A stretch of DNA of 64,000 nucleotides from Scolanthus callimorphus (taxonomy: Eukaryota; Cnidaria; Anthozoa; Actiniaria; Edwardsiidae): the NCBI GenBank assembly GCA_033964015.1, contig CM066916.1:27049404-27113403 (forward strand). Direction: 5' to 3'. Shown here in pieces: positions 9,888-53,063 of the stretch. The position numbers were made by a program, and so were the translations under genes. Position 1 is the stretch's first letter. Every line of letters starts with the position of its first letter. The notes under the pieces were generated by a model. That model searched no databases. It was given only the letters and a program-made list of their open reading frames with translations, and was not told the DNA's origin.

Positions 9888-11610
9888 TGATACTTAGATT
9901 TAGATAATATCATTATATTAGAGTCTATTAGATGTCTAGTATATTCTATCTTACCTTGTCCTCCCTTCCTATGCTGGACCCCTCGATATTGTGAAATTAT
10001 CAGATATTATCATCTTAGATTCTAGTAGATATCTAACTAGAATACCTCCCTTCCTATGCTGGACCCCACGATACTGCGATATTATCAGATATTATCATCT
10101 TAGATTCTAGTAGATATCTAACTAGAATACCTCCCTTCCTATGCTGGACCCCACGATACTGCGATATTATCAGATATTATCATCTTAGATTCTAGTAGAT
10201 ATCTAACTAGAATACCTCCCTTCCTATGCTGGACCCCACGATACTGCGATATTATCAGATATTATCATCTTAGATTCTAATAGATGTCTAACTAGATTAC
10301 CTCTCTTCCTATGCTGGACCCCACGATACTGCGATATTATCAGATATTATCATCTTAGATTCTAGTAGATATCTAACTAGAATACCTCCCTTCCTATGCT
10401 GGACCCCACGATACTGCGATATTATCAGATATTATCATCTTAGATTCTAATAGATGTCTAACTAGATTACCTCTCTTCCTATGCTGGACCCCACGATACT
10501 GCGATATTATCAGATATTATCATCTTAGATTCTAGTAGATATCTAACTAGAATACCTCCCTTCCTATGCTGGACCCCACGATACTGCGATATTATCAGAT
10601 ATTATCATCTTAGATTCTAATAGATGTCTAACTAGAATACCTCCCTTCCTATGCTGGACCCCACGATACTGCGATATTATCAGATATTATCATCTTAGAT
10701 TCTAGTAGATATCTAACTAGAATACCTCCCTTCCTATGCTGGACCCCACGATACTGCGATATTATCAGATATTATCATCTTAGATTCTAGTAGATATCTA
10801 ACTAGATTACCTCTCTTCCTATGCTGGACCCCACGATACTGCGATATTATCAGATATTATCATCTTAGATTCTAATAGATGTCTAACTAGAATACCTCCC
10901 TTCCTATGCTGGACCCCACGATACTGCGATATTATCAGATATTATCATCTTAGATTCTAGTAGATATCTAACTAGAATACCTCCCTTCCTATGCTGGACC
11001 CCACGATACTGCGATATTATCAGATATTATCATCTTAGATTCTAGTAGATATCTAACTAGATTACCTCCCTTCCTATGCTGGACCCCACGATACTGCGAT
11101 ATTATCAGATAATATAATCTTAGATTCTAGTAGATATCTAACTAGAATACCTCCCTTCCTATGCTGGACCCCTCGATATTGCGATATTATCAGATATTAT
11201 CATCTTAGATTCTAATAGACTTCTAACTAGATTACCTCCCTTCCTATGCTGGACCCCACGATATTGCGATATTATCAGATATTATCATCTTAGATTCTAG
11301 TAGATATCTAACTAGAATACCTCCCTTCCTATGCTGGACCCCACGATACTGCGATATTATCAGATAATATCATCTTAGATTCTAATAGATGTCTAACTAG
11401 ATTACCTCCCTTCCTATGCTAACCCCCACGATATTGTGATATTATCAGATATTATCTTATTAGAATCTATTAGATATCTATTTAGAAACCCTCCTTTCCT
11501 ATGCTGGACCCTATGACATTGTGATATTATCAGATATTATCTTAGTAGAATCTACTAGATCTCTATTTAGATACCCTCCCTTCTCTATACTGGATGCCAA
11601 GATATTGTCC
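9888..11610. repeat. 85-bp tandem array, about 19-20 units
   Basis: The unit begins CTCCCTTCCTATGCTGGACC and continues with GATATTATCAGATATTATC. Starts at 9961, 10046, 10131 and 10216 fix the period at 85 bp. Two sub-variants alternate (TAGTAGATATCTA and TAATAGATGTCTA), which suggests higher-order multi-unit amplification. The end units are the most diverged. Confidence 0.95.
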
Positions 11611-11612
11611 AA

Positions 11613-12330
11613 TTATAGAACGAAGCAATGTGGAATGATGGACCCATAGAAATAAAACATTTGTAGAACGAAGCAATGTGGAAATGAGGGACCAATGGAA
11701 ATTGAACATTTGAAGAACGAAGCAATGTGGAAATGAGGGACCAATTGGAAATAAAAAGCATTTGTAGAACGAAGCAATGTGGAAATGAGGGACCTATGGA
11801 AATTAAACATTTGTATAACGAAGCAATGTGGAAATGAGGGACTTATGGAAATAAAACATTTGTAGAACGAAGCAATGTTGAAATGAGGGACCAATTTGGA
11901 ATAAAACATTGTAGAACGAAGCAATGTGGAAATAAGGGACCAATTGGAAATAAAAGGCATTTGTAGAACGAAGCAATGTGGAAATGAGAGAGTATGGAAA
12001 TGAGACATTTGTAGAACGAAGCAATGTGGAAATGAGGGACTTATGGAAATAAAGCATTTGAAGAACGAAGCAATGTGGAAATGAGGGACCAATTGGGAAT
12101 AAACATTTGTAGAACGAAGCAATGTGGCAATGATGGACTTATGGAAATAAAACATTTGTAGAACGAAGCAATGTTGAAATGAGGGACCAATTGGGAATAA
12201 AACATTTGTAGAACGAAGCAATGTCGCAATGAGGGACCTATGGAAATTGAACATTTGTAGAACGAAGCCATGTGGAAATGAGGGACCCACGTAAATAAAC
12301 TACTTTGTAGAATGAAGCAATGTGGCAGTT
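11613..12330. repeat. About 50-bp tandem array, roughly 14 units
   Basis: The unit contains GAACGAAGCAATGTGGAAATG followed by a variable GGGACCAATTGGAAATAAA segment. Spacing between units is 48-56 bp because of small indels. The 225-codon frame on the minus strand is a translation of this repeat (FHKSLISTLLRSTNV repeats) and not a gene. The array directly follows the 85-bp array. Confidence 0.9.
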
Positions 12331-17650: not shown

Positions 17651-19240
17651 TGCTTAAAATATAATTATCAAGTAAATATCCAATAAACGATAACTATCAG
17701 TTGCAAGGTGAAAATATCCCATAAATATAAGTTACTAGATTTCCATTAATCTTTATAGTTCACCCCTCATAACCTATGATATTATAGAATAAATATCTGA
17801 TAATATCTTCCTTAAATCAAGTATCTGATAAACATTCGATAATAGACAAAAATATAATTATCAAGTAAATATTCGATAAACGATAACTGTCAGTTGCAAG
17901 GTGAAAATATCCGATAAATATCAGTTACTAGATTTCCATTAATCTTTATAGTTCACCCCTCACAAACTATGATATTATAGAATAAATATCTGATAATATC
18001 TTCCTTAAATCAAGTATCTGATAAACATTCGATAATAGACAAAAATATAATTATCAAGTAAATATCCGATAAACGATAACTATCAGTTGCAAGGTGAAAA
18101 TATCCGATAAATATCAGTTACTAGATTTCAAGTAATCTTTATAGTTCACCCCTCATAAACTATGATATTATCGAATAAATATCTGATAATATCTTCCTTA
18201 AATCAAGTATCTGATAAACATTCGATAATAGACAAAAATATAATTATCAAGTAAATATCCGATAAACGATAACTATCAGTTGCAAGGTGAAAATATCCGA
18301 TAAATATCAGTTACTAGATTTCAAGTAATCTTTATAGTTCACCCCTCACAAACTATGATATTATCGAATAAATATCTGATAATATCTTCCTTAAATCAAG
18401 TATCTGATAAACATTCGATAATAGACAAAAATATAATTATCAAGTAGATATCCGATAAACGATAACTATCAGTTGCAAGGTGAAAATATCCGATAAATAT
18501 CAGTTACTAGATTTCAAGTAATCTTTATAGTTCACCCCTCACAAACTATGATATTATCGAATAAATATCTGATAATATCTTCCTTAAATCAAGTATCTGA
18601 TAAACATCCGATAATAGACAAAAATATAATTATCAAGTAAATATCCGATAAACGATAACTATCAGTTGCAAGGTGAAAATATCCGATAAATATCAGTTAC
18701 TAGATTTCAAGTAATCTTTATAGTTCACCCCTCACAAACTATGATATTATCGAATAAATATCTGATAATATCTTCCTTAAATCAAGTATCTGATAAACAT
18801 TCGATAATAGACAAAAATATAATTATCAAGTAGATATCCGATAAACGATAACTATCAGTTGCAAGGTGAAAATATCCGATAAATATCAGTTACTAGATTT
18901 CCATTAATCTTTATAGTTCACCCCTCACAAACTATGATATTATCGAATAAATATCTGATAATATCTTCCTTAAATCAAGTATCTGATAAACATCCGATAA
19001 TAGACAAAAATATAATTATCAAGTAAATATCCGATAAACGATAACTATCAGTTGCAAGGTGAAAATATCCGATAAATATCAGTTACTAGATTCCCATTAA
19101 TCTTTATAGTTCACCCCTCACAAACTATGATATTATCGAATAAATATCTGATAAAATCTTCCTTAAATCAAGTATCTGATAAACATCCGATAATAGACAA
19201 AAGATAATTATCAACTAAATATCGGATAAACGAAAACTGC
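17651..19240. repeat. 193-bp tandem array, about 8 units
   Basis: The GTTCACCCCTCA motif recurs at 193-bp spacing (for example 17759, 17952, 18145, 18338). The unit is AT-rich with many GATAA/TTATC steps such as CGATAAACGATAACTATCAG. Partial related pieces occur at 16190-16260 and 16850-16990, so the array arose near an older repeat. Confidence 0.95.
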
Positions 19241-25629: not shown

Positions 25630-26092
25630 CCTTGCGCTTGCGTGTTGCGCTTGCGTGTTGCGCTTGCGTGTTGCGCTTGCGTGTTGCGCTCGCGTGTTGC
25701 GCTTGCGTGTTGCACTTGCGTGTTGCGTTCGCGTGTTGCGCTTGCGACTTGCGCTTGCGTGTTGCGTTCGCGTGTTGCGTTCGCGTGTTGCGCTTGCGTG
25801 TTGCGCTTGCGTGTTGCGCTTGCGTGTTGCGCTTGCGTGTTGCGCTTGCGTGTTGCGCTTGCGTGTTGCGCTTGCGTGTTGCGCTTGCGTGTTGCGCTTG
25901 CGTGTTGCGCTTGCGTGTTGCGCTTGCGTGTTGCGCTTGCGTGTTGCGCTTGCGTGTTGCGTTCGCGTGTTGCGCTTGCGACTTGCGCTTGCGTGTTGCG
26001 TTCGCGTGTTGCGCTTGCGACTTGCGTCTTGCTCTTGCGTCTTACGCTTGCGCTTGCGTTTTGCGCTTACGTCTTGCGCTTTCGATTGTGTA
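25630..26092. repeat. 13-bp minisatellite GCGCTTGCGTGTT, about 35 units
   Basis: The unit GCGCTTGCGTGTT is repeated with few changes (variants GCGTTCGCGTGTT and GCGCTTGCGACTT). Because 13 is not divisible by 3, all frames stay open and give 39-bp periodic peptides rich in Cys, Ala, Leu and Arg (150-180 codons) on both strands. These are not genes. It lies in intron 5 and is CpG-dense. Confidence 0.95.
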
Positions 26093-26718
26093 GTGTAAAT
26101 CAGGTGCAATCATGCAAACTTTTTAATGTTGCGTTTTAAACGCTTGCGTTCGCGTTTGCGTCACTATGATTTACACTTGCCTCGAGCTTCGTTCTTGCGC
26201 TTGCTCCAGCCCTTATAGGGATGCCACGCACGTTTACAATGCACACGCACGGTTGACGTCACAGCAGTTTGAAATGCGCGCGCTGTCTGGGCTTCTCGTC
26301 GCATCGCCTTTTGTCATTGTATAAGAAAAATCTCGTACCCAGAGCTCCCCATCTCGTCACCTCGCGGGGGAGCTCTGGTGGCAGCCACTTCAGTACCTTC
26401 GCTGATTGGCTGATTATAAACGTTTGGGCATGCGCAGAAACTTATCTCGCGCATGCGCCAGTGGCCGCCATCAGAGCCTCCCCCGCGAGATAAGGAGCCA
26501 GGGAGCTCTGGGAAAGAGAATGAAGAAAAATAGATCTCATTTACTCAACTCATTACACACTATAACATCATATGTGCATCTCTACTACAATTGACACTCC
26601 TCACAAGTATCCATTGCTTCTTATTCTTCAAGCATTCTGCTTTCATTACTATAGAGATGGAATATGTAGAGTATGGAATATATAATGTATTTGTTAAATC
26701 ATTGCCGTGATTTTACAG

Positions 26719-26877
26719 ATGTGATAGTACATGCACTTGACACGACATGGGAGCTCCACAAACCTTATCTACAGAAGTCGTCATTACTGAGCGCGATGGT
26801 CAGGCGGATGGATCTCGCGGGGATGAACAACATAGATGAGGAGGAAGAGGAGAGGGCTTTAGAACCACCGGCAGTCG
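26719..26877 (+). CDS. BTBD16: BTBD16-like exon 6 (start of BTB domain)
   Basis: The acceptor is GATTTTACAG at 26718 and the donor AGTCG|GTAGGT at 26878. It encodes DVIVHALDTTWELHKPYL, the first strand and helix of a BTB/POZ fold, then enters an acidic stretch (NNIDEEEEERALEPP). The W-x-LHK-x-YL pattern is characteristic of BTBD16 and germ cell-less proteins. Confidence 0.9.
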
Positions 26878-26917
26878 GTAGGTCGCGGAGCGCTGGGTGA
26901 CACGGGCTGCGCGTGTA

Positions 26918-29965: not shown

Positions 29966-30321
29966 GAGAGTAAAACATTCCTGCTTTGCCGCCCGAAAAT
30001 CGTTAGATGGTCTTTATGCTTAGTGTTAGCTACCTAACATTCTTCACAACAATAGTTTGACAAAATACCGTATAAAGTCCCTTTTTACTTGCCGAGGCCC
30101 AATTAGTAATTAGTTACTCTTTCTCCGCTTACTAGGGCTAACGCTCAGAAGCACACATGGGACCATTTCATTAGCACGTTAGCTTTCACACAAGGTTAAT
30201 TCCTTATCTCCACTCTGTTGAACTTAGTGCTACGCGGCCACAGGCTTGCCTGAACATCTACATCTATTCACTTCATTACCGCCAACATTACATCTAATTT
30301 ACCCCGACCTGCTCCCAGTCT

Positions 30322-30396
30322 GACCTGGATAGCTCAGCTGGTAGAGCATCGGATGTACAATTCTGAAGGTCGTGGGTTCGAATCCCTCTCGGGGTC
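30322..30396 (+). tRNA. tRNA-like gene, copy 1 (isotype uncertain)
   Basis: A Pol III A box (TAGCTCAGCTGG, 30330-30341) and perfect B box (GGTTCGAATCC, 30375-30385) are present, with a T6 terminator at 30402-30407. D and T arms fold normally. The acceptor can form 8 pairs with one G-G mismatch. The anticodon stem TCGGA/TCTGA closes an 8-base loop TGTACAAT (30354-30361) instead of 7. A 7-base reading gives UAC with G at position 33 in place of the near-universal U; the loop could also be read as GUA or ACA. No CCA is encoded and no intron fits. It is either a non-canonical Pol III gene or a tRNA-derived satellite. Confidence 0.75.
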
Positions 30397-30612
30397 AGAG
30401 ATTTTTTCTCTTTCTCCGCTTACTAGGGCTAACGCTCAGAAGCACACATGGGACCATTTCATTAGCACGTTAGCTTTCACACAAGGTTAATTCCTTATCT
30501 CCACTCTGTTGAACTTAGTGCTACGCGGCCACAGGCTTGCCTGAACATCTACATCTATTCACTTCATTACCGCGAACATTACATCTAATTTACCCCGACC
30601 TGCTCCCAGTCT

Positions 30613-30687
30613 GACCTGGATAGCTCAGCTGGTAGAGCATCGGATGTACAATTCTGAAGGTCGTGGGTTCGAATCCCTCTCGGGGTC
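30613..30687 (+). tRNA. tRNA-like copy 2
   Basis: 75-nt body identical to copy 1, 291 bp downstream. Confidence 0.72.
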
Positions 30688-30903
30688 AGAGATTTTTTCT
30701 CTTTCTCCGCTTACTAGGGCTAACGCTCAGAAGCACACATGGGACCATTTCATTAGCACGTTAGCTTTCACACAAGGTTAATTCCTTATCTCCACTCTGT
30801 TGAACTTAGTGCTACGCGGCCACAGGCTTGCCTGAACATCTACATATATTCACTTCATTACCGCGAACATTACATCTAATTTACCCCGACCTGCTCCCAG
30901 TCT

Positions 30904-30978
30904 GACCTGGATAGCTCAGCTGGTAGAGCATCGGATGTACAATTCTGAAGGTCGTGGGTTCGAATCCCTCTCGGGGTC
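30904..30978 (+). tRNA. tRNA-like copy 3
   Basis: 75-nt body identical to copy 1; 291-bp spacing. From this unit on the spacer reads CATATATTC. Confidence 0.72.
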
Positions 30979-31194
30979 AGAGATTTTTTCTCTTTCTCCG
31001 CTTACTAGGGCTAACGCTCAGAAGCACACATGGGACCATTTCATTAGCACGTTAGCTTTCACACAAGGTTAATTCCTTATCTCCACTCTGTTGAACTTAG
31101 TGCTACGCGGCCACAGGCTTGCCTGAACATCTACATATATTCACTTCATTACCGCCAACATTACATCTAATTTACCCCGACCTGCTCCCAGTCT

Positions 31195-31269
31195 GACCTG
31201 GATAGCTCAGCTGGTAGAGCATCGGATGTACAATTCTGAAGGTCGTGGGTTCGAATCCCTCTCGGGGTC
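31195..31269 (+). tRNA. tRNA-like copy 4
   Basis: 75-nt body identical to copy 1; the spacer before it has the CCAACATT variant. Confidence 0.72.
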
Positions 31270-31485
31270 AGAGATTTTTTCTCTTTCTCCGCTTACTAGG
31301 GCTAACGCTCAGAAGCACACATGGGACCATTTCATTAGCACGTTAGCTTTCACACAAGGTTAATTCCTTATCTCCACTCTGTTGAACTTAGTGCTACGCG
31401 GCCACAGGCTTGCCTGAACATCTACATATATTCACTTCATTACCGCGAACATTACATCTAATTTACCCCGACCTGCTCCCAGTCT

Positions 31486-31560
31486 GACCTGGATAGCTCA
31501 GCTGGTAGAGCATCGGATGTACAATTCTGAAGGTCGTGGGTTCGAATCCCTCTCGGGGTC
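31486..31560 (+). tRNA. tRNA-like copy 5
   Basis: 75-nt body identical to copy 1; 291-bp spacing. Confidence 0.72.
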
Positions 31561-31776
31561 AGAGATTTTTTCTCTTTCTCCGCTTACTAGGGCTAACGCT
31601 CAGAAGCACACATGGGACCATTTCATTAGCACGTTAGCTTTCACACAAGGTTAATTCCTTATCTCCACTCTGTTGAACTTAGTGCTACGCGGCCACAGGC
31701 TTGCCTGAACATCTACATATATTCACTTCATTACCGCGAACATTACATCTAATTTACCCCGACCTGCTCCCAGTCT

Positions 31777-31851
31777 GACCTGGATAGCTCAGCTGGTAGA
31801 GCATCGGATGTACAATTCTGAAGGTCGTGGGTTCGAATCCCTCTCGGGGTC
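31777..31851 (+). tRNA. tRNA-like copy 6
   Basis: 75-nt body identical to copy 1; 291-bp spacing. Confidence 0.72.
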
Positions 31852-32067
31852 AGAGATTTTTTCTCTTTCTCCGCTTACTAGGGCTAACGCTCAGAAGCAC
31901 ACATGGGACCATTTCATTAGCACGTTAGCTTTCACACAAGGTTAATTCCTTATCTCCACTCTGTTGAACTTAGTGCTACGCGGCCACAGGCTTGCCTGAA
32001 CATCTACATATATTCACTTCATTACCGCGAACATTACATCTAATTTACCCCGACCTGCTCCCAGTCT

Positions 32068-32141
32068 GACCTGGATAGCTCAGCTGGTAGAGCATCGGAT
32101 GTACAATTCTGAAGGTCGTGGGTTCGAATCCCTCTCGGGTC
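32068..32141 (+). tRNA. tRNA-like copy 7 (one G deleted)
   Basis: 74 nt: the 3' acceptor strand has GGG instead of GGGG. This removes the G-G mismatch position and allows a 7-bp acceptor stem starting from the first G. Confidence 0.7.
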
Positions 32142-32357
32142 AGAGATTTTTTCTCTTTCTCCGCTTACTAGGGCTAACGCTCAGAAGCACACATGGGACC
32201 ATTTCATTAGCACGTTAGCTTTCACACAAGGTTAATTCCTTATCTCCACTCTGTTGAACTTAGTGCTACGCGGCCACAGGCTTGCCTGAACATCTACATA
32301 TATTCACTTCATTACCGCGAACATTACATCTAATTTACCCCGACCTGCTCCCAGTCT

Positions 32358-32432
32358 GACCTGGATAGCTCAGCTGGTAGAGCATCGGATGTACAATTCT
32401 GAAGGTCGTGGGTTCGAATCCCTCTCGGGGTC
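32358..32432 (+). tRNA. tRNA-like copy 8
   Basis: 75-nt body identical to copy 1. Confidence 0.72.
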
Positions 32433-32648
32433 AGAGATTTTTTCTCTTTCTCCGCTTACTAGGGCTAACGCTCAGAAGCACACATGGGACCATTTCATTA
32501 GCACGTTAGCTTTCACACAAGGTTAATTCCTTATCTCCACTCTGTTGAACTTAGTGCTACGCGGCCACAGGCTTGCCTGAACATCTACATATATTCACTT
32601 CATTACCGCGAACATTACATCTAATTTACCCCGACCTGCTCCCAGTCT

Positions 32649-32723
32649 GACCTGGATAGCTCAGCTGGTAGAGCATCGGATGTACAATTCTGAAGGTCGT
32701 GGGTTCGAATCCCTCTCGGGGTC
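32649..32723 (+). tRNA. tRNA-like copy 9
   Basis: 75-nt body identical to copy 1. Confidence 0.72.
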
Positions 32724-32938
32724 AGAGATTTTTTCTCTTTCTCCGCTTACTAGGGCTAACGCTCAGAAGCACACATGGGACCATTTCATTAGCACGTTAG
32801 CTTTCACACAAGGTTAATTCCTTATCTCCACTCTGTTGAACTTAGTGCTACGCGGCCACAGGCTTGCCTGAACATCTACATATATTCACTTCATTACCGC
32901 CAACATTACATCTATTTACCCCGACCTGCTCCCAGTCT

Positions 32939-33013
32939 GACCTGGATAGCTCAGCTGGTAGAGCATCGGATGTACAATTCTGAAGGTCGTGGGTTCGAAT
33001 CCCTCTCGGGGTC
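32939..33013 (+). tRNA. tRNA-like copy 10
   Basis: 75-nt body identical to copy 1; the spacer before it lacks one A (TCTATTTACC). Confidence 0.72.
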
Positions 33014-33229
33014 AGAGATTTTTTCTCTTTCTCCGCTTACTAGGGCTAACGCTCAGAAGCACACATGGGACCATTTCATTAGCACGTTAGCTTTCACACA
33101 AGGTTAATTCCTTATCTCCACTCTGTTGAACTTAGTGCTACGCGGCCACAGGCTTGCCTGAACATCTACATATATTCACTTCATTACCGCCAACATTACA
33201 TCTAATTTACCCCGACCTGCTCCCAGTCT

Positions 33230-33303
33230 GACCTGGATAGCTCAGCTGGTAGAGCATCGGATGTACAATTCTGAAGGTCGTGGGTTCGAATCCCTCTCGG
33301 GTC
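33230..33303 (+). tRNA. tRNA-like copy 11 (one G deleted)
   Basis: 74 nt with the GGG acceptor variant, as in copies 7 and 16. Confidence 0.7.
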
Positions 33304-33519
33304 AGAGATTTTTTCTCTTTCTCCGCTTACTAGGGCTAACGCTCAGAAGCACACATGGGACCATTTCATTAGCACGTTAGCTTTCACACAAGGTTAATTC
33401 CTTATCTCCACTCTGTTGAACTTACTGCTACGCGGCCACAGGCTTGCCTGAACATCTACATATATTCACTTCATTACCGCGAACATTACATCTAATTTAC
33501 CCCGACCTGCTCCCAGTCT

Positions 33520-33594
33520 GACCTGGATAGCTCAGCTGGTAGAGCATCGGATGTACAATTCTGAAGGTCGTGGGTTCGAATCCCTCTCGGGGTC
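33520..33594 (+). tRNA. tRNA-like copy 12
   Basis: 75-nt body identical to copy 1; the spacer before it has CTTACTGCTACG for CTTAGTGCTACG. Confidence 0.72.
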
Positions 33595-33810
33595 AGAGAT
33601 TTTTTCTCTTTCTCCGCTTACTAGGGCTAACGCTCAGAAGCACACATGGGACCATTTCATTAGCACGTTAGCTTTCACACAAGGTTAATTCCTTATCTCC
33701 ACTCTGTTGAACTTAGTGCTACGCGGCCACAGGCTTGCCTGAACATCTACATATATTCACTTCATTACCGCGAACATTACATCTAATTTACCCCGACCTG
33801 CTCCCAGTCT

Positions 33811-33885
33811 GACCTGGATAGCTCAGCTGGTAGAGCATCGGATGTACAATTCTGAAGGTCGTGGGTTCGAATCCCTCTCGGGGTC
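33811..33885 (+). tRNA. tRNA-like copy 13
   Basis: 75-nt body identical to copy 1. Confidence 0.72.
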
Positions 33886-34101
33886 AGAGATTTTTTCTCT
33901 TTCTCCGCTTACTAGGGCTAACGCTCAGAAGCACACATGGGACCATTTCATTAGCACGTTAGCTTTCACACAAGGTTAATTCCTTATCTCCACTCTGTTG
34001 AACTTAGTGCTACGCGGCCACAGGCTTGCCTGAACATCTACATATATTCACTTCATTACCGCGAACATTACATCTAATTTACCCCGACCTGCTCCCAGTC
34101 T

Positions 34102-34176
34102 GACCTGGATAGCTCAGCTGGTAGAGCATCGGATGTACAATTCTGAAGGTCGTGGGTTCGAATCCCTCTCGGGGTC
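34102..34176 (+). tRNA. tRNA-like copy 14
   Basis: 75-nt body identical to copy 1. Confidence 0.72.
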
Positions 34177-34392
34177 AGAGATTTTTTCTCTTTCTCCGCT
34201 TACTAGGGCTAACGCTCAGAAGCACACATGGGACCATTTCATTAGCACGTTAGCTTTCACACAAGGTTAATTCCTTATCTCCACTCTGTTGAACTTAGTG
34301 CTACGCGGCCACAGGCTTGCCTGAACATCTACATATATTCACTTCATTACCGCGAACATTACATCTAATTTACCCCGACCTGCTCCCAGTCT

Positions 34393-34467
34393 GACCTGGA
34401 TAGCTCAGCTGGTAGAGCATCGGATGTACAATTCTGAAGGTCGTGGGTTCGAATCCCTCTCGGGGTC
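34393..34467 (+). tRNA. tRNA-like copy 15
   Basis: 75-nt body identical to copy 1. Confidence 0.72.
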
Positions 34468-34683
34468 AGAGATTTTTTCTCTTTCTCCGCTTACTAGGGC
34501 TAACGCTCAGAAGCACACATGGGACCATTTCATTAGCACGTTAGCTTTCACACAAGGTTAATTCCTTATCTCCACTCTGTTGAACTTAGTGCTACGCGGC
34601 CACAGGCTTGCCTGAACATCTACATATATTCACTTCATTACCGCGAACATTACATCTAATTTACCCCGACCTGCTCCCAGTCT

Positions 34684-34757
34684 GACCTGGATAGCTCAGC
34701 TGGTAGAGCATCGGATGTACAATTCTGAAGGTCGTGGGTTCGAATCCCTCTCGGGTC
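34684..34757 (+). tRNA. tRNA-like copy 16 (one G deleted)
   Basis: 74 nt with the GGG acceptor variant, third occurrence in the array. Confidence 0.7.
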
Positions 34758-34973
34758 AGAGATTTTTTCTCTTTCTCCGCTTACTAGGGCTAACGCTCAG
34801 AAGCACACATGGGACCATTTCATTAGCACGTTAGCTTTCACACAAGGTTAATTCCTTATCTCCACTCTGTTGAACTTAGTGCTACGCGGCCACAGGCTTG
34901 CCTGAACATCTACATATATTCACTTCATTACCGCGAACATTACATCTAATTTACCCCGACCTGCTCCCAGTCT

Positions 34974-35048
34974 GACCTGGATAGCTCAGCTGGTAGAGCA
35001 TCGGATGTACAATTCTGAAGGTCGTGGGTTCGAATCCCTCTCGGGGTC
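34974..35048 (+). tRNA. tRNA-like copy 17
   Basis: 75-nt body identical to copy 1. Confidence 0.72.
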
Positions 35049-35264
35049 AGAGATTTTTTCTCTTTCTCCGCTTACTAGGGCTAACGCTCAGAAGCACACA
35101 TGGGACCATTTCATTAGCACGTTAGCTTTCACACAAGGTTAATTCCTTATCTCCACTCTGTTGAACTTAGTGCTACGCGGCCACAGGCTTGCCTGAACAT
35201 CTACATATATTCACTTCATTACCGCGAACATTACATCTAATTTACCCCGACCTGCTCCCAGTCT

Positions 35265-35339
35265 GACCTGGATAGCTCAGCTGGTAGAGCATCGGATGTA
35301 CAATTCTGAAGGTCGTGGGTTCGAATCCCTCTCGGGGTC
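35265..35339 (+). tRNA. tRNA-like copy 18
   Basis: 75-nt body identical to copy 1. Confidence 0.72.
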
Positions 35340-35555
35340 AGAGATTTTTTCTCTTTCTCCGCTTACTAGGGCTAACGCTCAGAAGCACACATGGGACCAT
35401 TTCATTAGCACGTTAGCTTTCACACAAGGTTAATTCCTTATCTCCACTCTGTTGAACTTAGTGCTACGCGGCCACAGGCTTGCCTGAACATCTACATATA
35501 TTCACTTCATTACCGCGAACATTACATCTAATTTACCCCGACCTGCTCACAGTCT

Positions 35556-35630
35556 GACCTGGATAGCTCAGCTGGTAGAGCATCGGATGTACAATTCTGA
35601 AGGTCGTGGGTTCGAATCCCTCTCGGGGTC
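35556..35630 (+). tRNA. tRNA-like copy 19
   Basis: 75-nt body identical to copy 1; one change in the 5' flank (GCTCACAG for GCTCCCAG). Confidence 0.72.
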
Positions 35631-35846
35631 AGAGATTTTTTCTCTTTCTCCGCTTACTAGGGCTAACGCTCAGAAGCACACATGGGACCATTTCATTAGC
35701 ACGTTAGCTTTCACACAAGGTTAATTCCTTATCTCCACTCTGTTGAACTTAGTGCTACGCGGCCACAGGCTTGCCTGAACATCTACATATATTCACTTCA
35801 TTACCGCGAACATTACATCTAATTTACCCCGACCTGCTCCCAGTCT

Positions 35847-35921
35847 GACCTGGATAGCTCAGCTGGTAGAGCATCGGATGTACAATTCTGAAGGTCGTGG
35901 GTTCGAATCCCTCTCGGGGTC
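35847..35921 (+). tRNA. tRNA-like copy 20
   Basis: 75-nt body identical to copy 1. Confidence 0.72.
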
Positions 35922-36136
35922 AGAGATTTTTTCTCTTTCTCCGCTTACTAGGGCTAACGCTCAGAAGCACACATGGGACCATTTCATTAGCACGTTAGCT
36001 TTCACACAAGGTTAATTCCTTATCTCCACTCTGTTGAACTTAGTGCTACGCGGCCACAGGCTTGCCTGAACATCTACATATATTCACTTCATTACCGCGA
36101 ACATTACATCTAATTTACCCGACCTGCTTACAGTCT

Positions 36137-36211
36137 GACCTGGATAGCTCAGCTGGTAGAGCATCGGATGTACAATTCTGAAGGTCGTGGGTTCGAATCC
36201 CTCTCGGGGTC
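36137..36211 (+). tRNA. tRNA-like copy 21
   Basis: 75-nt body identical to copy 1; the 5' flank differs (TACCCGACCTGCTTACAG). Confidence 0.72.
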
Positions 36212-36427
36212 AGAGATTTTTTCTCTTTCTCCGCTTACTAGGGCTAACGCTCAGAAGCACACATGGGACCATTTCATTAGCACGTTAGCTTTCACGCAAG
36301 GTTAATTCCTTATCTCCACTCTGTTGAACTTAGTGCTACGCGGCCACAGGCTTGCCTGAACATCTACATATATTCACTTCATTACCGCGAACATTACATC
36401 TAATTTACCCCGACCTGCTCCCAGTCT

Positions 36428-36502
36428 GACCTGGATAGCTCAGCTGGTAGAGCATCGGATGTACAATTCTGAAGGTCGTGGGTTCGAATCCCTCTCGGGG
36501 TC
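36428..36502 (+). tRNA. tRNA-like copy 22
   Basis: 75-nt body identical to copy 1; the spacer before it has TTTCACGCAAGG for TTTCACACAAGG. Confidence 0.72.
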
Positions 36503-36718
36503 AGAGATTTTTTCTCTTTCTCCGCTTACTAGGGCTAACGCTCAGAAGCACACATGGGACCATTTCATTAGCACGTTAGCTTTCACACAAGGTTAATTCC
36601 TTATCTCCACTCTGTTGAACTTAGTGCTACGCGGCCACAGGCTTGCCTGAACATCTACATATATTCACTTCATTACCGCGAACATTACATCTAATTTACC
36701 CCGACCTGCTCCCAGTCT

Positions 36719-36793
36719 GACCTGGATAGCTCAGCTGGTAGAGCATCGGATGTACAATTCTGAAGGTCGTGGGTTCGAATCCCTCTCGGGGTC
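36719..36793 (+). tRNA. tRNA-like copy 23
   Basis: 75-nt body identical to copy 1. Confidence 0.72.
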
Positions 36794-37009
36794 AGAGATT
36801 TTTTCTCTTTCTCCGCTTACTAGGGCTAACGCTCAGAAGCACACATGGGACCATTTCATTAGCACGTTAGCTTTCACACAAGGTTAATTCCTTATCTCCA
36901 CTCTGTTGAACTTAGTGCTACGCGGCCACAGGCTTGCCTGAACATCTACATATATTCACTTCATTACCGCGAACATTACATCTAATTTACCCCGACCTGC
37001 TCCCAGTCT

Positions 37010-37084
37010 GACCTGGATAGCTCAGCTGGTAGAGCATCGGATGTACAATTCTGAAGGTCGTGGGTTCGAATCCCTCTCGGGGTC
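37010..37084 (+). tRNA. tRNA-like copy 24
   Basis: 75-nt body identical to copy 1. Confidence 0.72.
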
Positions 37085-37300
37085 AGAGATTTTTTCTCTT
37101 TCTCCGCTTACTAGGGCTAACGCTCAGAAGCACACATGGGACCATTTCATTAGCACGTTAGCTTTCACACAAGGTTAATTCCTTATCTCCACTCTGTTGA
37201 ACTTAGTGCTACGCGGCCACAGGCTTGCCTGAACATCTACATATATTCACTTCATTACCGCGAACATTACATCTAATTTACCCCGACCTGCTCCCAGTCT

Positions 37301-37375
37301 GACCTGGATAGCTCAGCTGGTAGAGCATCGGATGTACAATTCTGAAGGTCGTGGGTTCGAATCCCTCTCGGGGTC
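37301..37375 (+). tRNA. tRNA-like copy 25
   Basis: 75-nt body identical to copy 1. Confidence 0.72.
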
Positions 37376-37591
37376 AGAGATTTTTTCTCTTTCTCCGCTT
37401 ACTAGGGCTAACGCTCAGAAGCACACATGGGACCATTTCATTAGCACGTTAGCTTTCACACAAGGTTAATTCCTTATCTCCACTCTGTTGAACTTAGTGC
37501 TACGCGGCCACAGGCTTGCCTGAACATCTACATATATTCACTTCATTACCGCGAACATTACATCTAATTTACCCCGACCTGCTCCCAGTCT

Positions 37592-37666
37592 GACCTGGAT
37601 AGCTCAGCTGGTAGAGCATCGGATGTACAATTCTGAAGGTCGTGGGTTCGAATCCCTCTCGGGGTC
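37592..37666 (+). tRNA. tRNA-like copy 26 (last)
   Basis: 75-nt body identical to copy 1. The following spacer carries GGGCCAACG and breaks off at 37825, about 160 bp on. Confidence 0.72.
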
Positions 37667-38179
37667 AGAGATTTTTTCTCTTTCTCCGCTTACTAGGGCC
37701 AACGCTCAGAAGCACACATGGGACCATTTCATTAGCACGTTAGCTTTCACACAAGGTTAATTCCTTATCTCCACTCTGTTGAACTTAGTGCTACGCGGCC
37801 ACAGGCTTGCCTGAACATCTACATAGTTACAACACTGTTTTCCCCTCTGAGAAGTAAATATAGAGCACTACTGTTCTATGCATTCCCTCCAATTTCGGCG
37901 CGCGCCACTGACACAGGAAGCCTGCAACAAATATTTTTCAAAGCTAAATTTGAAGATACGAAGTCTTCTTTCCATCTCTCTTCTGTGAAAAATTTGTGGA
38001 ATGTATAAACTTTCTGTTACGGGTTATTAGTAGAACGTTCTGCGTTACGCATGTTTGCGCGCATATTAAAGTTTGGGGCCTTCTCGTTGCAAGAGCTGTT
38101 TTTTTATTTGTTTTTGCAATGTATTTTCTAAACGGTTCTCTGGGTGATAATGTCAAACCCGTGGTAACAACAAGCGTTC

Positions 38180-38352
38180 CTCCTTTGTCCATTCTCCAGC
38201 GTTCGCACGAGCTCTATCGCCATGTACGATAACTATAAGCGTGTCTTGTTCATTCTTCAGCGTTCGCACGAGCTCTATCGGCATGTACGATAACTATAAG
38301 CGTTCCATGTTCATTTTTCAGCGTTCGCACGAGCTCTATCGGCCATGTACGA
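38180..38352 (+). repeat. Triplicated splice acceptor and exon start
   Basis: CAG followed by CGTTCGCACGAGCTCTATCG occurs three times, with exon-like starts at 38200, 38261 and 38322 (61-bp spacing). Only the third continues into the full exon 8. The upstream two run into CATGTACGATAACTATAAGC. Each carries a usable CAG acceptor, but 61 and 122 bp are not multiples of 3. Confidence 0.9.
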
Positions 38353-38442
38353 AACAGAAGCGGAAATGAGGGTGGAGCAGGGAGATGTGGTAGGCGTGTT
38401 GGCCGCCGCACATTACCTCGGGTTTGCATCTCTGGAAAAAGT
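38322..38442 (+). CDS. BTBD16: BTBD16-like exon 8
   Basis: The acceptor is TTTTTCAG at 38321 and the donor GT|GTAAGT at 38443. It encodes residues 355-394 (ALSAMYETEAEMRVEQGDVV, then LAAAHYLGFASLEK), the last helices of the BTB fold. The phase fits exon 7 (1) and exon 9 (2). Confidence 0.9.
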
Positions 38443-44050: not shown

Positions 44051-44724
44051 GTACTATTCGGCGTGTAAATTAACACAAACAAATTGCTTGGCTACATTAC
44101 CATTTTTTCAAGCAGAATACTCTTTATAATGCACTCATGATGCGAATAGCGGTCCACAACTTGCAATGCAACATTGTTTCATTGGCTTTATTTTCACGTG
44201 TGAAGACATCAAGTTTTCGCGCGAGAGATCACCCGGTATTTCATTGCTGTTTAAATAATAAGACATTTTCTTATGCTGGTTTCTCAGCTTCAACGGTTCT
44301 TATAAAAATAGAGTGTAGGTTTAGAAAAGCACCCAAGCATTACTAGAAGTACTAGTAAAAACAAACATTCCTAGAGTTCATTGTAGCGGAGCTCCTGCGC
44401 GGGCCGAAGGCCCGCGCAAGCGGAGCACCATACCTAAGAAAATAACGTCTCGCATAACTATGGAGTTGATTTTCAAACGTCACGGGCTTTCTTGCTCATT
44501 TTGCTTACGTTATTGACGGCGCCAAGTCAAATGATTAGGGCGTTGAAATGGTATCGCCCAAAAGATTAATGTGTCCAAGTTTGGTTGCCATAGGTTGTTC
44601 CCTTCTTGAGATATGAATCTTTTTGTTTCTTCCTGGTATTAAAGGTATAGCGTACGTCCGTCCGTCCGTCCGCCGTACGCGGAAACTCATGGGAACCCTG
44701 TGGTATACTAAGAAAATTAAAAAA

Positions 44725-47275
44725 TCTCGGGAAGGGATGGACCTTAGACAACCAAACTTGGATGAAGTTATCTAAGTGGCAAGGGGGGTGCAACTGCATG
44801 GTCACGTGGTATGACGTCATCGATGACGTCATCATAGGAGAAAAATGATATATCCCAAGAAGGGATGAACCTCAGGCAACCAAACTTGGGTGAAGGTATC
44901 TAAGTGGCAAGGGGGGTGCAACTGCATGGTCACGTGGTATGACGTCATTGATGACGTCATCATAGGAGAAAAATGATATACCTCAAGAAGGGATGAACCT
45001 CAGACAACCGAACTTGGGTGAAGGTATCTAAGTGGCAAGGGGGGTGCAACTGCATGGTCACGTGGTATGACGTCATTGATGACGTCATCATAGGAGAAAA
45101 ATGATATAACTCAAGAAGGGATGAACCTCAGACAACCAAACTTGGATGAAGTTATCTAAGTGGCAAGGGGGTGCAACTGCATGGTCACGTGGTATCACGT
45201 CATCGATGACGTCATCATAGGAGAAAAATGATATATCTCAAGAAGGGATGAACCTCAGACAACCAAACTTGGGTGAAGGTATCTAAGTGGCAAGGGGGGT
45301 GCAACTGCATGGTCACGTGGTATGACGTCATTGATGACGTCATCATAGGAGAAAAATGATATACCTCAAGAAGGGATGAACCTCAGACAACCGAACTTGG
45401 GTGAAGGTATCTAAGTGGCAAGGGGGGTGCAACTGCATGGTCACGTGGTATGACGTCATTGATGACGTCATCATAGGAGAAAAATGATATAACTCAAGAA
45501 GGGATGAACCTCAGACAACCAAACTTAGATGAAGTTATCTAAGTGGCAAGGGGGGTGCAACTGCATGGTCACGTGGTATCACGTCATCGATGACGTCATC
45601 ATAGGAGAAAAATGATATATCTCAAGAAGGGATGAACCTCAGACAACCAAACTTGGGTGAAGGTATCTAAGTGGCAAGGGGGGTGCAACTGCATGGTCAC
45701 GTGGTATGACGTCATTGATGACGTCATCATAGGAGAAAAATGATATATCTCAAGAAGGGATGAACCTCAGACAACCAAACTTGGATGAAGTTATCTAAGT
45801 GGCAAGGAGGGTGCAACTGCATGGTCACGTGGTATGACGTCATTGATGACGTCATCATAGGAGAAAAGTGATATATCTCAAGAAGGGATGAACCTCAGAC
45901 AACCAAACTTGGGTGAAGTTATCTAAGTGGCAAGGGGGGTGCAACTGCATGGTCACGTGGTATGACGTCATCGATGACGTCATCATAGGAGAAAAATGAT
46001 ATATCTCAAGAAGGGATGAACCTCAGACAACCAAACTTAGATGAAGTTATCTAAGTGGCAAGGAGGGTGCAACTGCATGGTCACGTGGTATGACGTCATT
46101 GATGACGTCATCATAGGAGAAAAATGATATATCTCAAGAAGGGATGAACCTCAGACAACCAAACTTGGGTGAAGTTATCTAAGTGGCAAGGGGGGTGCAA
46201 CTGCGTGGTCACGTGGTATGACGTCATTGATGACGTCATCATAGGAGAAAAATGATATATCTCAAGAAGGGATGAACCTCAGACAGCCAACTTGGGTGAA
46301 GTTATCTAAGTGGCAAGGGGGTGCAACTGCATGGTCACGTGGTATGACGTCATTGATGAAGTCATCATAGGAGAAAAATGATATATCTCAAGAAGGGATG
46401 AGCCTCAGACAACCAAACTTGGGTGAAGTTATGTAAGTGGCAAGGAGGGTGCAACTGCATGGTCACGTGGTATGACGTCATCGATGACGTCATCATAGGA
46501 GAAAAATGATATATCTCAAGAAGGGATGAACCTCAGACAACCAAACTTGGGTGAAGTTATCTAAGTGGCAAGGGGGGTGCAACTGCGTGGTCACGTGGTA
46601 TGACGTCATTGATGACGTCATCATAGGAGAAAAATGATATATCTCAAGAAGGGATGAACCTCAGACAGCCAAACTTGGGTGAAGTTATCTAAGTGGCAAG
46701 GGGGTGCAACTGCATGGTCACGTGGTATGACGTCATTGATGAAGTCATCATAGGAGAAAAATGATATATCTCAAGAAGGGATGAGCCTCAGACAACCAAA
46801 CTTGGGTGAAGTTATGTAAGTGGCAAGGAGGGTGCAACTGCATGGTCACGTGGTATGACGTCATCGATGACGTCATCATAGGAGAAAAATTATATATCTC
46901 AAGAAGGGATGAACCTCAGACAACCAAACTTGGATGAAGTTATCTAAGTGGCAAGGAGGGTGCAACTGCATGGTCACGTGGTATGACGTCATCGATGACG
47001 TCATCATAGGAGAAAAATTATATATCTCAAGAAGGGATGAACCTCAGACAACCAAACTTGGGTGAAGGTATCTAAGTGGCAAGGGGGTGCAACAGCATGG
47101 TCACGAGGTATGACGTCATTGATGACGTCATCATAGGAGAAAAATGATATATCTCAAGAAGGGATTAACTTCAGACAACCAAACTTGGGTGAAGTTATCT
47201 AAGTGGCAAGGTGGGTGTAACTGCATGGTTACGAGGTATGACTTAATTGATGACGTCATCAAACGTGAAAAGGTT
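44725..47275. repeat. About 127-bp satellite with CACGTG and TGACGTCA, about 20 units
   Basis: The unit contains CAACCAAACTTGGGTGAAG, GTGGCAAGGGGGGTGCAACT, GGTCACGTGGTATGACGTCA and GATGACGTCATCATAGGAG. The GACGTCATCATAGG motif recurs every 126-128 bp. Most units carry one CACGTG and two overlapping CRE-like TGACGTCA sites. Units come in TTGGGTGAAGGT / TTGGATGAAGTT subtypes in a repeating order. A flipped piece of the unit lies at about 44570-44620, and GGAGCTCC-type ends (about 44388 and 47409) may mark an enclosing element. Confidence 0.95.
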
Positions 47276-48475
47276 TACATCGTTTAAGGGATGAACCTTA
47301 GATAACCACACTTGGGTGAACAAGTGCTTAGTAACGTGGTATAACGGTGCAAGGCTATCTATTCACGTACAATGGCAACCTTTTGTCTTGTTAAAAAAAT
47401 TTGTAACCGGGAGCTCCGCTTTTAGCCAGTGGCTAAATCTATATATTACTGTCGCGTCATTGTACTGTCAGCGTCGAATATCTTAAGTGGTCTCACCGCA
47501 GTTAATTTTATCGGAGTGCATTAACAATTGAGTGACTTCCTGTTTAGAGTTGTAGTAAGTAGCGGGATGAGTGTCAACTAAATACGTTTTTGCAACAAGG
47601 AAGTACGCTAGTTGGTTTCTCTAAAACAATTAGACTATTCTGTCTCGTTTCCTATGTACTAGTTAAAACACTGCTGCCCGTGATTTGAATATGCATGAAC
47701 GCTTAATTTATTGTGTCGAACACGTCGCAAAGCGAGCAGCCACCGTGAAAAGAAAAGAAACACAAAATTTGCCGGGTTTTTGTAATTTCGCACAAACTGC
47801 CGCTGAATTAGCTTGCAGGCTCGGTCCAATAACCTGTACAGAGAACTGTTCCCGCTGAAAATAGCGCGGGCGCTTGCAAACTGCCAGAGTTGTGCGTAGA
47901 CTTTGAGCCAATCAGAAAACGATTACTGAGTACAATGAATAATAATGTGCGATATTATTTAGTATTATATATTGGATCAAACTCTTCTATAAAAAGTGAC
48001 CAGAAATTCGCGGCTTGTCAGCGAGCTTGTATTTTAAAAATGTACGTGTTCCGTTCCCTTCAAAATTTTACCAAAACGAAAGAGTTATAACTTCAAATTT
48101 TCTACAGTTGGACAAAGATGTCCAAAAAATCCGAATTTTACAAATGTTAAACGGTTCATGAATCTTTTTCACAAATGTTTAGCGGTTCAACATCATTCAT
48201 TAAACATGATTCAACAATAGTCAACTTTACACGAAGTTACGGTTTCATTTATTTAGAAAACTTTAAACATGCATTGAACAAAGTTAAACATCGCTGAATA
48301 CGCATTAATTAATAATATTTACCGAGTGAACTCGGGTTTTGAATTCTTGTTCATGAAAAATTGTTGGAAACTCATTCACAAATGTCATCAGCCTATGAGT
48401 CCACAAATCTCAGCTATGAAGTCATGTTACAAAATAATTACCAATATGTTTTTTCGCCATCAAGATCAATGAAGA

Positions 48476-52201: not shown

Positions 52202-53063
52202 TCGCGAGTTGTTGAGAGAATTGGACCTGATGTAGAGGCACGCGTGCGGGACCCATGGAATCCCCGACGACGCTTGAGGCGAACTCGACCGAATGCACTC
52301 TGTCTCCATGACAGAATTTTACTGACATTTATGTGGCTAAGAAATTACTCTACCCAGAAATATATCGCCCAACAGTTCGGAATATCAGCTAATACCGTCT
52401 GTGAAACTATATCGACAATTGTTCCTATACTATACGAGCACTACTATCAGCGATACGTTGTGTGGAACGACGAAGAAACATGGGAGAGCCAGCGAAATTA
52501 TTTCCACCAATTCCCAAATGCTGTCGGTTCAATAGACGCTTTTGCGGTACAGATAAATAGGCCACAAGGTGACAGACAGCGCTTATACTACCGACGAGAT
52601 AGGGGATATCATTTTTTTAAATTTTCACGCAGTGGTCGATAATGAGGGTTTTTTCCAGTTTGTACGCGGTGGCTATCTGGGTCACAGCACGGATGCCGAT
52701 TCGTTTGCGCGACTACCATCCATGGGTTACCATCGAGAACTACACCTTCCACGCGGAGCCTGTCTCCTGGCAGATGGCGGTTATCCTTCAGTAGCGCCTC
52801 TCATCACACCATTTAGGCGCCCCAGAAGGGGTCGACTAGACCTTGCGCGCTACCGCGCAAATGTAGAGCTTGGCAGAGCAAGGGTATTCGTCGAAAATAG
52901 AATAGGTGACTTACGAGTGTATCGTAGCGTGCCTGGCAGAGCAGGCAGGTTCCGAGGGCGCAGAGCCTTTGTCAGTTTAACTGTTTTCGTTGTAGCTGCT
53001 TTAACAAACAGACGAAGGCTACTTATCAGAATAATAAGGAACAGATTTCAGCGCGATTTGTAA
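52202..53063 (+). pseudogene. DDE_4 (HARBI1/IS5-like) transposase, main part, frameshifted
   Basis: The order of parts is typical of the DDE_Tnp_4 superfamily. A helix-turn-helix (YIAQQFGISANTVCETI) comes first, then the first catalytic Asp in PNAVGSIDAFAVQINRP, the second Asp in LLADGGYPS, and the catalytic Glu in ARVFVENRIGDLRVYR. The gene stops at the TAA 53061-53063. A one-base frame change occurs in the T/A-rich stretch at about 52610-52630, between YYRRDRGYHFF and NFHAVVDNEGFF; it may be a real mutation or a homopolymer error. With the 2.5-kb insertion upstream the gene is doubly broken. PIF/Harbinger or the related ISL2EU group are the best candidates. Confidence 0.8.

Follow-up and report, generated by a model that had tools for sequence, protein, structure and literature searches.

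How does a tRNA-like sequence come to be repeated 26 times, almost letter for letter, apparently inside a protein-coding gene? The question is posed by a stretch of 64,000 nucleotides from the sea anemone Scolanthus callimorphus (assembly GCA_033964015.1, contig CM066916.1, positions 27,049,404 to 27,113,403 of the forward strand), referred to as the window throughout, which carries a tandem array of 291-bp units, each with one tRNA-like body. A sequence-only reading had wavered between an RNA polymerase III (Pol III)-active family with an unusual small RNA product, a tRNA decoding in a shifted frame, and a tRNA-derived satellite that unequal exchange keeps homogeneous. What looks like a local tRNA array is a single insertion of a retroelement family that is scattered through the genome. 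The family is likely, in our judgement, to be a dispersed, non-coding and non-autonomous retroelement, which spreads by target-primed reverse transcription and for which a unit-length RNA circle is the best template.

The array and the family to which it belongs

Tandem Repeats Finder (TRF) recovers the array, 7,709 bp in total, as a single run with a period of 291, 26.5 copies and 99% matches, and a unit alignment yields 26 full units of 290-291 bp each and one partial unit of about 148 bp, in agreement with the earlier count of 26 near-identical units. Nine columns vary across the full units, one of them within the body, and one further column differs in the partial unit only; the GC content of the unit is 0.47. 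No candidate emerged when the 78-amino-acid frame of the array was used in a protein search, and exact-pattern scans of viral and GTDB contigs gave no matches. A DNA query with unit 1-114 likewise gave no candidates, presumably because the words of that stretch occur too often.

The body comprises 76 bases (75 in three units), and all 26 bodies match the Rfam family RF00005, with 46.2 bits in 23 units and 39.1 bits in the three that lack one G, which confirms both the tRNA derivation of the repeat and the uniformity of its bodies as first described. ARAGORN reports every body as “tRNA-???” and assigns it four anticodon bases, “taca”, so that the anticodon loop has 8 bases and no isotype is given. 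The loop length had thus been read correctly, as had the T6 run 3’ of the body, which accompanies A-box- and B-box-like motifs, and the extended acceptor stem with its G-G mismatch. Neither program returned a high-scoring standard call, and the 7-base anticodon loop and the isotype of a functional nuclear tRNA are both lacking; a lax Rfam threshold adds only 16.8-bit matches to a plastid family with a cut-off of 65.7. When aligned with tRNA-Lys genes of this genome, the body agrees at 55-56 of 73 positions. A genome-wide pattern that allowed loops of 4-12 bases and detected the first D-loop subtype (see below) only gave 229 matches, and the loop had 8 bases in 100 of 100 among the matches listed. 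Upstream of the body, the heptamer ACCCCGA (unit 185-191) is a perfect complement of the 3’ acceptor strand TCGGGGT (273-279), with which it pairs better than the 5’ acceptor strand does; it is perhaps the displaced original acceptor strand.

The host assembly (597 Mb, 302 contigs) has 14 matches to the GFP family, 10 of which fall within C4:3.82-3.96 Mb, and one translated piece is most similar to red fluorescent proteins and GFP-like chromoproteins, in keeping with an anthozoan. In this assembly, a search for exact copies gives 512 for a 42-base stretch of the body (275 and 237 by strand) and 1,409 for the 42-mer at unit positions 54-95, and the reversed-pattern control gave 0 in either case. 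Units measure 291-292 bp and copies range from part-units up to 26-mers; the scored copies other than that in the window span 76 to 1,983 bp, and a cluster at 40.91-40.92 Mb of contig C1 is longer. Dispersed copies differ from the unit at about 1-2% of positions, and on account of this low mismatch rate the family looks young. Two subtypes coexist, which are distinguished by the D loop GGTAGAGC or GGTTAGAGC. Elsewhere on contig C1 (G000:C1:38964802-38969989), six matches to a spacer piece lie about 1 kb apart and form a larger tandem repeat that contains part of the element.

Two samples of this family were scored. The first consists of 55 loci with flanks, which were picked by exact body matches, partly from the first 100 of the body-piece places listed, and which leave out the C1 cluster at 40.91-40.92 Mb. 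It comprises 44 simple insertions (the window array and the cut-off locus L063 counted in), 14 two-block inverted composites and one mixed case; five blocks shorter than 120 bp were omitted, L053 (+--+) was placed in neither class, and the pairs L014/L015, L020/L021 and L045/L046, which have common flanks and are not independent, were nevertheless counted. The second sample consists of 20 regions, all on C1, from the first 100 places listed for the exact 54-95 piece, and it is blind to 3’ ends inside unit 54-95. A stronger conservation of the body across the first sample was considered and set aside: the body outside the search pattern shows 45 differences in 4,103 positions and the rest of the unit 514 in 27,807, yet one spacer stretch is nearly as low (65/5,314), alignment ends inflate the count for the rest, and the loci had been picked by an exact body match, so that no conclusion on body conservation is drawn.

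The array in the window has a history of its own. At unit position 173, T is present in every one of the 26 units, whereas the dispersed segments have A in 42 of 43 cases; some rare variants are also common to units that lie apart (position 275 in units 7, 11 and 16; position 167 in units 1, 4, 10 and 11). Given this private T and the sharing of rare variants between distant units, growth to 26 units probably took place here after insertion, by unequal exchange. That copy number can change after insertion is indicated by L014 and L015, which have the same flanks and differ by one unit. The notion of a satellite homogenized by unequal exchange therefore holds in part for this particular copy, but not in the sense of a satellite confined to a single intron, since the array is one insertion of a genome-wide family.

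Insertion ends, target sites and inverted composites

The insertions share an asymmetric anatomy. In the first sample, 32 of the 44 simple insertions have their 3’ end in one of two narrow ranges of the unit, 95-105 (site A, 16 cases) or 141-158 (site B, 16 cases; p 6e-23). Only 5 of 44 have their 5’ end in these ranges, and the 5’ ends as a whole do not differ from a uniform spread over the unit (Kolmogorov-Smirnov p 0.12). The second sample repeats the pattern, with 13 of 15 simple insertions ending at A or B (seven and six, respectively), and the window array itself ends at site B (unit 148), with TAGTTAC flanking it on both sides.

Flanking sequences of at least 8 bases that match at the two ends occur in 21 of 58 insertions of the first sample, compared with 35 of 3,300 cross-locus pairs; in the second sample, matches of at least 9 bases flank 9 of 21 blocks and 5 of 418 cross pairs. 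The clear target-site duplications measure 9-17 bp, and all 13 simple insertions of the first sample with a duplication of at least 9 bp have their 3’ end at A or B; L022 also fits when its two halves, split by a nested insertion, are put back together. Outside the duplications lies a target motif, A(V)AA(M), which is similar at both borders on opposite strands and thus symmetric, A(V)AA(M)|...|KTT(B)T. Of the 44 borders, 33 have A at -2, 25 have A at -3 and one has T at -4. The motif was picked after viewing the sites and is based on 22 of 24 of them, L051 and L057 having been left out without a test. The duplication and the unit overlap by 2 bases (median) at 3’ junctions, compared with 1 at 5’ junctions, a weak difference (Mann-Whitney p 0.03). 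The case for a microhomology bias at 3’ junctions is weaker than the means (2.2 versus -1.4) suggest, as their difference is driven by one outlier of -19. By eye, no poly-A or simple tail is present at A/B 3’ junctions in the junction listing. We read the motif and the overlaps as traces of a staggered, symmetric cut, the 3’ ends of which pair with the element RNA.

A second class of insertions consists of two blocks in inverted orientation, which point outward in 14 of 14 cases of the first sample and 6 of 6 of the second; four of the latter (L116-L119) had been selected for this very orientation and can therefore test the A/B ends but not the geometry. The four-block locus L053 is of mixed orientation. 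Among the first 100 places listed for the 54-95 piece, opposite-strand neighbours within 500 bp form eight outward and no inward pairs by eye, some of the eight being insertions already scored. Outward inversion of this sort is the arrangement that twin priming gives in work on LINE-1.

The outer ends of these composites follow a pairing rule in the clear cases. Wherever the duplication measures at least 9 bp, A marks one of the two outer ends and B the opposite one (10 of 10 in the first sample and 5 of 5 in the second). Twelve of these 15 fit by raw alignment ends; L056 and L116 fit after removal of 11 and 12 bases, respectively, of alignment running into the duplication, and L038 falls a few bases short of A (93). 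L066 alone resembles a B+B composite, and when joined with L065 it becomes one A+B insertion with a 13-base duplication. The ends of L011 (154/100) and L100 (105/152) come with shorter flank matches of 8 and 6 bases, respectively.

Proposed copying of an RNA circle and the competing explanations

The following scheme is inferred in all its steps from the anatomy of the insertions. A staggered cut would leave two free 3’ ends about 9-17 bases apart. On the element RNA, either of them could serve as primer at site A (unit ~100) or at site B (unit ~148), and synthesis would proceed upstream and stop anywhere, yielding fixed 3’ and scattered 5’ ends, and priming by both 3’ ends would create outward-pointing inverted copies. 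On a circle of 291 nt with one A and one B, double priming would have to take one of each, and copying round and round the circle would write tandem units of one subtype. We are less sure how the circle arises: host tRNA enzymes may cut a long tandem transcript at the tRNA-like body into unit lengths, which would then be ligated, in place of the hammerhead that does this for retrozymes. The body may also, or instead, be a Pol III promoter, and it would thus serve as promoter, as processing point, or as both. The full proposal of a ribozyme-free retrozyme, in which host tRNA enzymes cut the tRNA-like module to give a unit circle and double priming and rolling reverse transcription write the arrays, is put forward tentatively, at somewhat less than an even chance.

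Several observations are consistent with this scheme. Since the composites are A+B and a 291-nt circle offers one A and one B, the pairing favours a circle. A single D-loop subtype is found in 30 of 34 arrays. Upstream copying predicts a gradient, in which the piece at 160-201, copied last, falls below the body count and the piece at 104-145 is intermediate. The observed numbers are 407 and 824, and the prediction was noted when the counts for 54-95 (1,409) and the body (512) were already known. Without the window, exact copies number 1,383 (54-95), 798 (104-145), 486 (body) and 407 (160-201); these counts also depend on mutation, the 104-145 piece often carrying the change 110 A>C. The predicted fold of the circular unit is matched in stability by 3 of 150 shuffles and leaves site B and most of site A unpaired, and the linear unit is less clearly stable (14 of 200 shuffles). 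The pairing of ACCCCGA with TCGGGGT is not used in the circular fold.

Other observations weigh against it. Four of the 34 arrays (L018, L023, L035 and L043) mix D-loop subtypes, and the two arms of L043, an insertion with a 15-bp duplication, differ in subtype; as one monomer circle gives one subtype, such arrays speak against a single monomer circle or need a later change. Twelve of the 44 simple 3’ ends of the first sample miss A and B (L014, L015, L018, L020, L021, L023, L028, L035, L040, L042, L045 and L048), as do 2 of 15 in the second (the second block of L103, and L110). The composites L012, L034 and L041, none of which has a clear duplication, do not fit the pairing rule; 37 of 58 insertions lack an 8-base match at their ends, and the direct repeat around the window array, at just 7 bp, is weak evidence when taken alone. 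The cloverleaf is absent from the predicted circular fold, where the anticodon arm is the sole tRNA arm, and the body alone folds no more stably than its shuffles (z -0.07). Rfam detects no ribozyme in the window, nor in an 801-base sequence that contains two units, and the hammerhead core CTGANGA was found on neither strand. Finally, the sites could also come to be paired because one reverse-transcriptase dimer holds both A and B.

The rival that survives best retains target-primed retroposition and replaces the circle with a long linear tandem transcript, for instance of an array within a gene, on which priming could start inside any unit, at its A or its B site. The window array does lie in sense within a gene, as judged from weak domain matches, and heterogeneous linear RNA would allow the four mixed arrays. 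Yet if both ends primed freely on a long linear RNA, half of the composites would be expected to be A+A or B+B, because simple insertions use A and B about equally; all 15 clear ones combine A with B, one of these being off by a few bases. The prevalence of single-subtype arrays also speaks against this template, though a uniform source array would produce it too, and so does the lack of a poly-A tail at the 3’ junctions by eye. We consider a linear template unlikely, at perhaps one chance in a handful.

Spread at the DNA level would mean that fragments of a satellite, or extrachromosomal circles, insert anew at breaks, with the number of units fixed by unequal exchange. It would account for the one-unit difference between L014 and L015 and for the private variant common to the window units. 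The breakpoints of a DNA circle, however, would be expected anywhere on both sides and are seen so for the 5’ ends only; the clustering of the 3’ ends disfavours this explanation, which also leaves the long target duplications and the copy gradient unexpected, and we regard it as very unlikely.

That the units are functional tRNA genes in tandem, their anticodon loop expanded to serve frameshift decoding or to yield a new small RNA, is more improbable still, even if Rfam and ARAGORN detect a tRNA-like fold and the promoter-like motifs and the T6 run are in place. No isotype is assigned, and the body scores 46.2 bits compared with 61.6-76 bits for canonical Lys, Cys and Arg tRNA genes sampled in the same genome. 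The greater uniformity of the body relative to the spacer, implied by the sequence-only reading, did not materialize within the window (1 of 76 body columns varies, compared with 8 of 215 others; Fisher p 0.45), and copies in the genome are dispersed and truncated, with insertion ends that ignore the tRNA borders. Together with the 8-base loop, these properties make the suggested shifted-frame decoder unlikely.

Least probable of all is a terminal-repeat retrotransposon in miniature (TRIM) of the Helenus type, which would carry the tRNA-like sequence in its long terminal repeats (LTRs) and form repeat-internal-repeat arrays: although the window array can be read as (A-B)26-A and a zebrafish Helenus family is reported to form tandem arrays, animal Helenus elements make 4-bp duplications and possess, besides their LTRs, both a primer-binding site and a polypurine tract (PMC10886601), whereas the clear duplications here measure 9-17 bp and the 5’ ends are scattered.

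Host gene, related repeats and known systems

The array appears to lie in sense orientation within a BTBD16-like gene, as previously described, and is flanked by two weak matches to the BTB domain model PF23998 (Table 1). Both fall below the Pfam cut-off of 27.9 bits but are collinear; the upstream match at 26718-26882 did not recur in a longer translated stretch. At 38185-38352, a 61-bp tandem repeat of 2.7 copies extends into the start of the downstream BTB exon, the 5’ end of which, with its acceptor-like CAG, seems to have been triplicated by it. The window further contains pieces of a Harbinger-like DDE transposase (52238-53063; PF13613 and PF13359, in overlapping frames) and additional long tandem arrays at 9960-12325, 17656-19238, 25632-26081 and 44724-47320, with units of 85, 49, 193, 13 and 128/383 bp and no Rfam match at gathering score.

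Table 1. Positions of the array, its parts and the flanking host gene matches, counted from the first nucleotide of the window.
Feature	Position	Strand	Remark
First part of BTBD16-type BTB domain, host gene	26718..26882	+	PF23998 positions 1-54, 17.5 bits
Left TAGTTAC copy, 7-bp direct repeat, presumed target-site duplication	30111..30117	+	
Tandem array of 26 complete 291-bp units plus a partial unit	30117..37825	+	Read as one retroelement insertion
Site A, unit 1 (unit ~90-100, ATCTCCACTCT)	30206..30216	+	One of two 3’ end positions in sampled insertions
Site B, unit 1 (unit ~138-150, ACATCTACAT..)	30254..30266	+	Second 3’ end position
tRNA-like body, unit 1 (unit positions 206-281)	30322..30397	+	Recurs in all 26 units, last at 37592
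T6 run 3’ of unit 1 body	30402..30407	+	Possible Pol III terminator
Right TAGTTAC copy	37824..37830	+	Shares two bases with array end
Later part of BTBD16-type BTB domain, host gene	38318..38440	+	PF23998 positions 78-116, 24.7 bits

Other tRNA-bearing repeats occur in this genome. A second, diverged and dispersed family is represented by L097 (1112-1359), L098 and L099 (1128-1548), the module of which is 76-83% alike over 59-63 bases. L099 is tandem with a period of about 261 (1128-1548), L097 contains outward inverted bodies (1112-1359), and the bodies score 44.7 to 60.8 bits, with anticodons called at three bases and a standard isotype in two of the three loci. These loci probably belong to an older family of the same kind of element. 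As their bodies reach 60.8 bits and two have a standard isotype, the 8-base loop may be a late change, and tandem elements bearing a tRNA may be an older kind in this genome. A dispersed hammerhead (RF00163) family is also present, with 68 of 74 scored candidates passing the cut-off; the hammerhead loci L067-L082 show no homology to the tRNA unit beyond chance matches, and a repeat, of two copies, is found in L067 only, which makes them of little use for comparison.

Tandem arrays of tRNA genes are described for Hydractinia and Nematostella in parts of PMC11067881. Like the array in the window, they consist of tRNA sequences and spacers arranged head to tail, but they have a defined isotype, whereas the present element is dispersed and has none (PMC11067881). 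A closer counterpart to the Hydractinia arrays, as portrayed there, is a large regular RF00005 cluster on contig C12 (G000:C12:10759267-10800663), two pieces of which (L083 and L096) contain 11 tRNA-Lys(TTT) genes, mostly about 185 bp apart. A search of the open-access literature with narrow terms retrieved no non-LTR, tRNA-bearing tandem retroelement, the nearest being Helenus. According to the relevant sections of PMC10886601, Helenus TRIMs are likewise small non-autonomous retroelements with a tRNA-like sequence and form tandem arrays in one zebrafish family, but they possess LTRs, fixed ends and 4-5 bp duplications. Identity with Helenus is excluded, since neither duplications of that length nor fixed LTR ends are found here.

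Short interspersed nuclear elements (SINEs) derived from tRNAs are small, have a tRNA-like part with A- and B-box motifs, and show target duplications, fixed 3’ ends and 5’ truncation. The present element resembles them in its tRNA-like part with A- and B-box-like motifs, its small size, its duplications and its fixed 3’ ends. It departs from them in having two alternative 3’ ends, in its multi-unit tandem insertions and in the location of the tRNA part: no tRNA-derived promoter marks the 5’ end of the element, as 5’ ends are spread over the unit. An A-rich or simple-repeat tail was not seen by eye.

The closest likeness is to the animal non-LTR retrozymes, tandem repeats with a type I hammerhead, which occur in corals and sea anemones and whose proposed mode of spread is the copying of unit circles into tandem cDNA by a reverse transcriptase, as set out in parts of PMC7229834 and PMC7761336. 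Their units of about 300 bp with a GC content below 50%, dispersed as dimers to multimers, and their target duplications of more than 4 bp without an LTR (PMC7229834, PMC7761336) all have counterparts here: dispersed tandem units of 291-292 bp, from part-units to 26-mers, lie within the retrozyme range of about 150-450 bp, and duplications exceed 4 bp in the clear cases, many insertions having no clear one. Unlike these retrozymes, the element has a tRNA-like body, and its unit contains neither a type I hammerhead nor another Rfam ribozyme. It also has two defined 3’ ends and the A/B pairing, an anatomy that does not appear in the retrozyme descriptions of the relevant sections (PMC7229834, PMC7761336). 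Retrozyme repeats, in the corresponding part of PMC7761336, bear no motif that points to a partner retrotransposon. The present family offers a readable insertion record, with two priming sites, a symmetric target motif, long staggers and double priming at one site of each kind, and this record points to small circles as templates. It also shows a route by which a tRNA-like body can enter a tandem repeat that is mobile. Where tRNA predictions reach high copy numbers in genomes like this one, the possibility that they are retroelements should be kept in mind. If the scheme is true, arrays of this kind, perhaps including some apparent tRNA arrays of cnidarians, would be born by circle copying and not by local duplication. 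The element seems to spread like the ribozyme-carrying retrozymes, with a tRNA-like piece that lies in the place of the ribozyme and may have replaced it.

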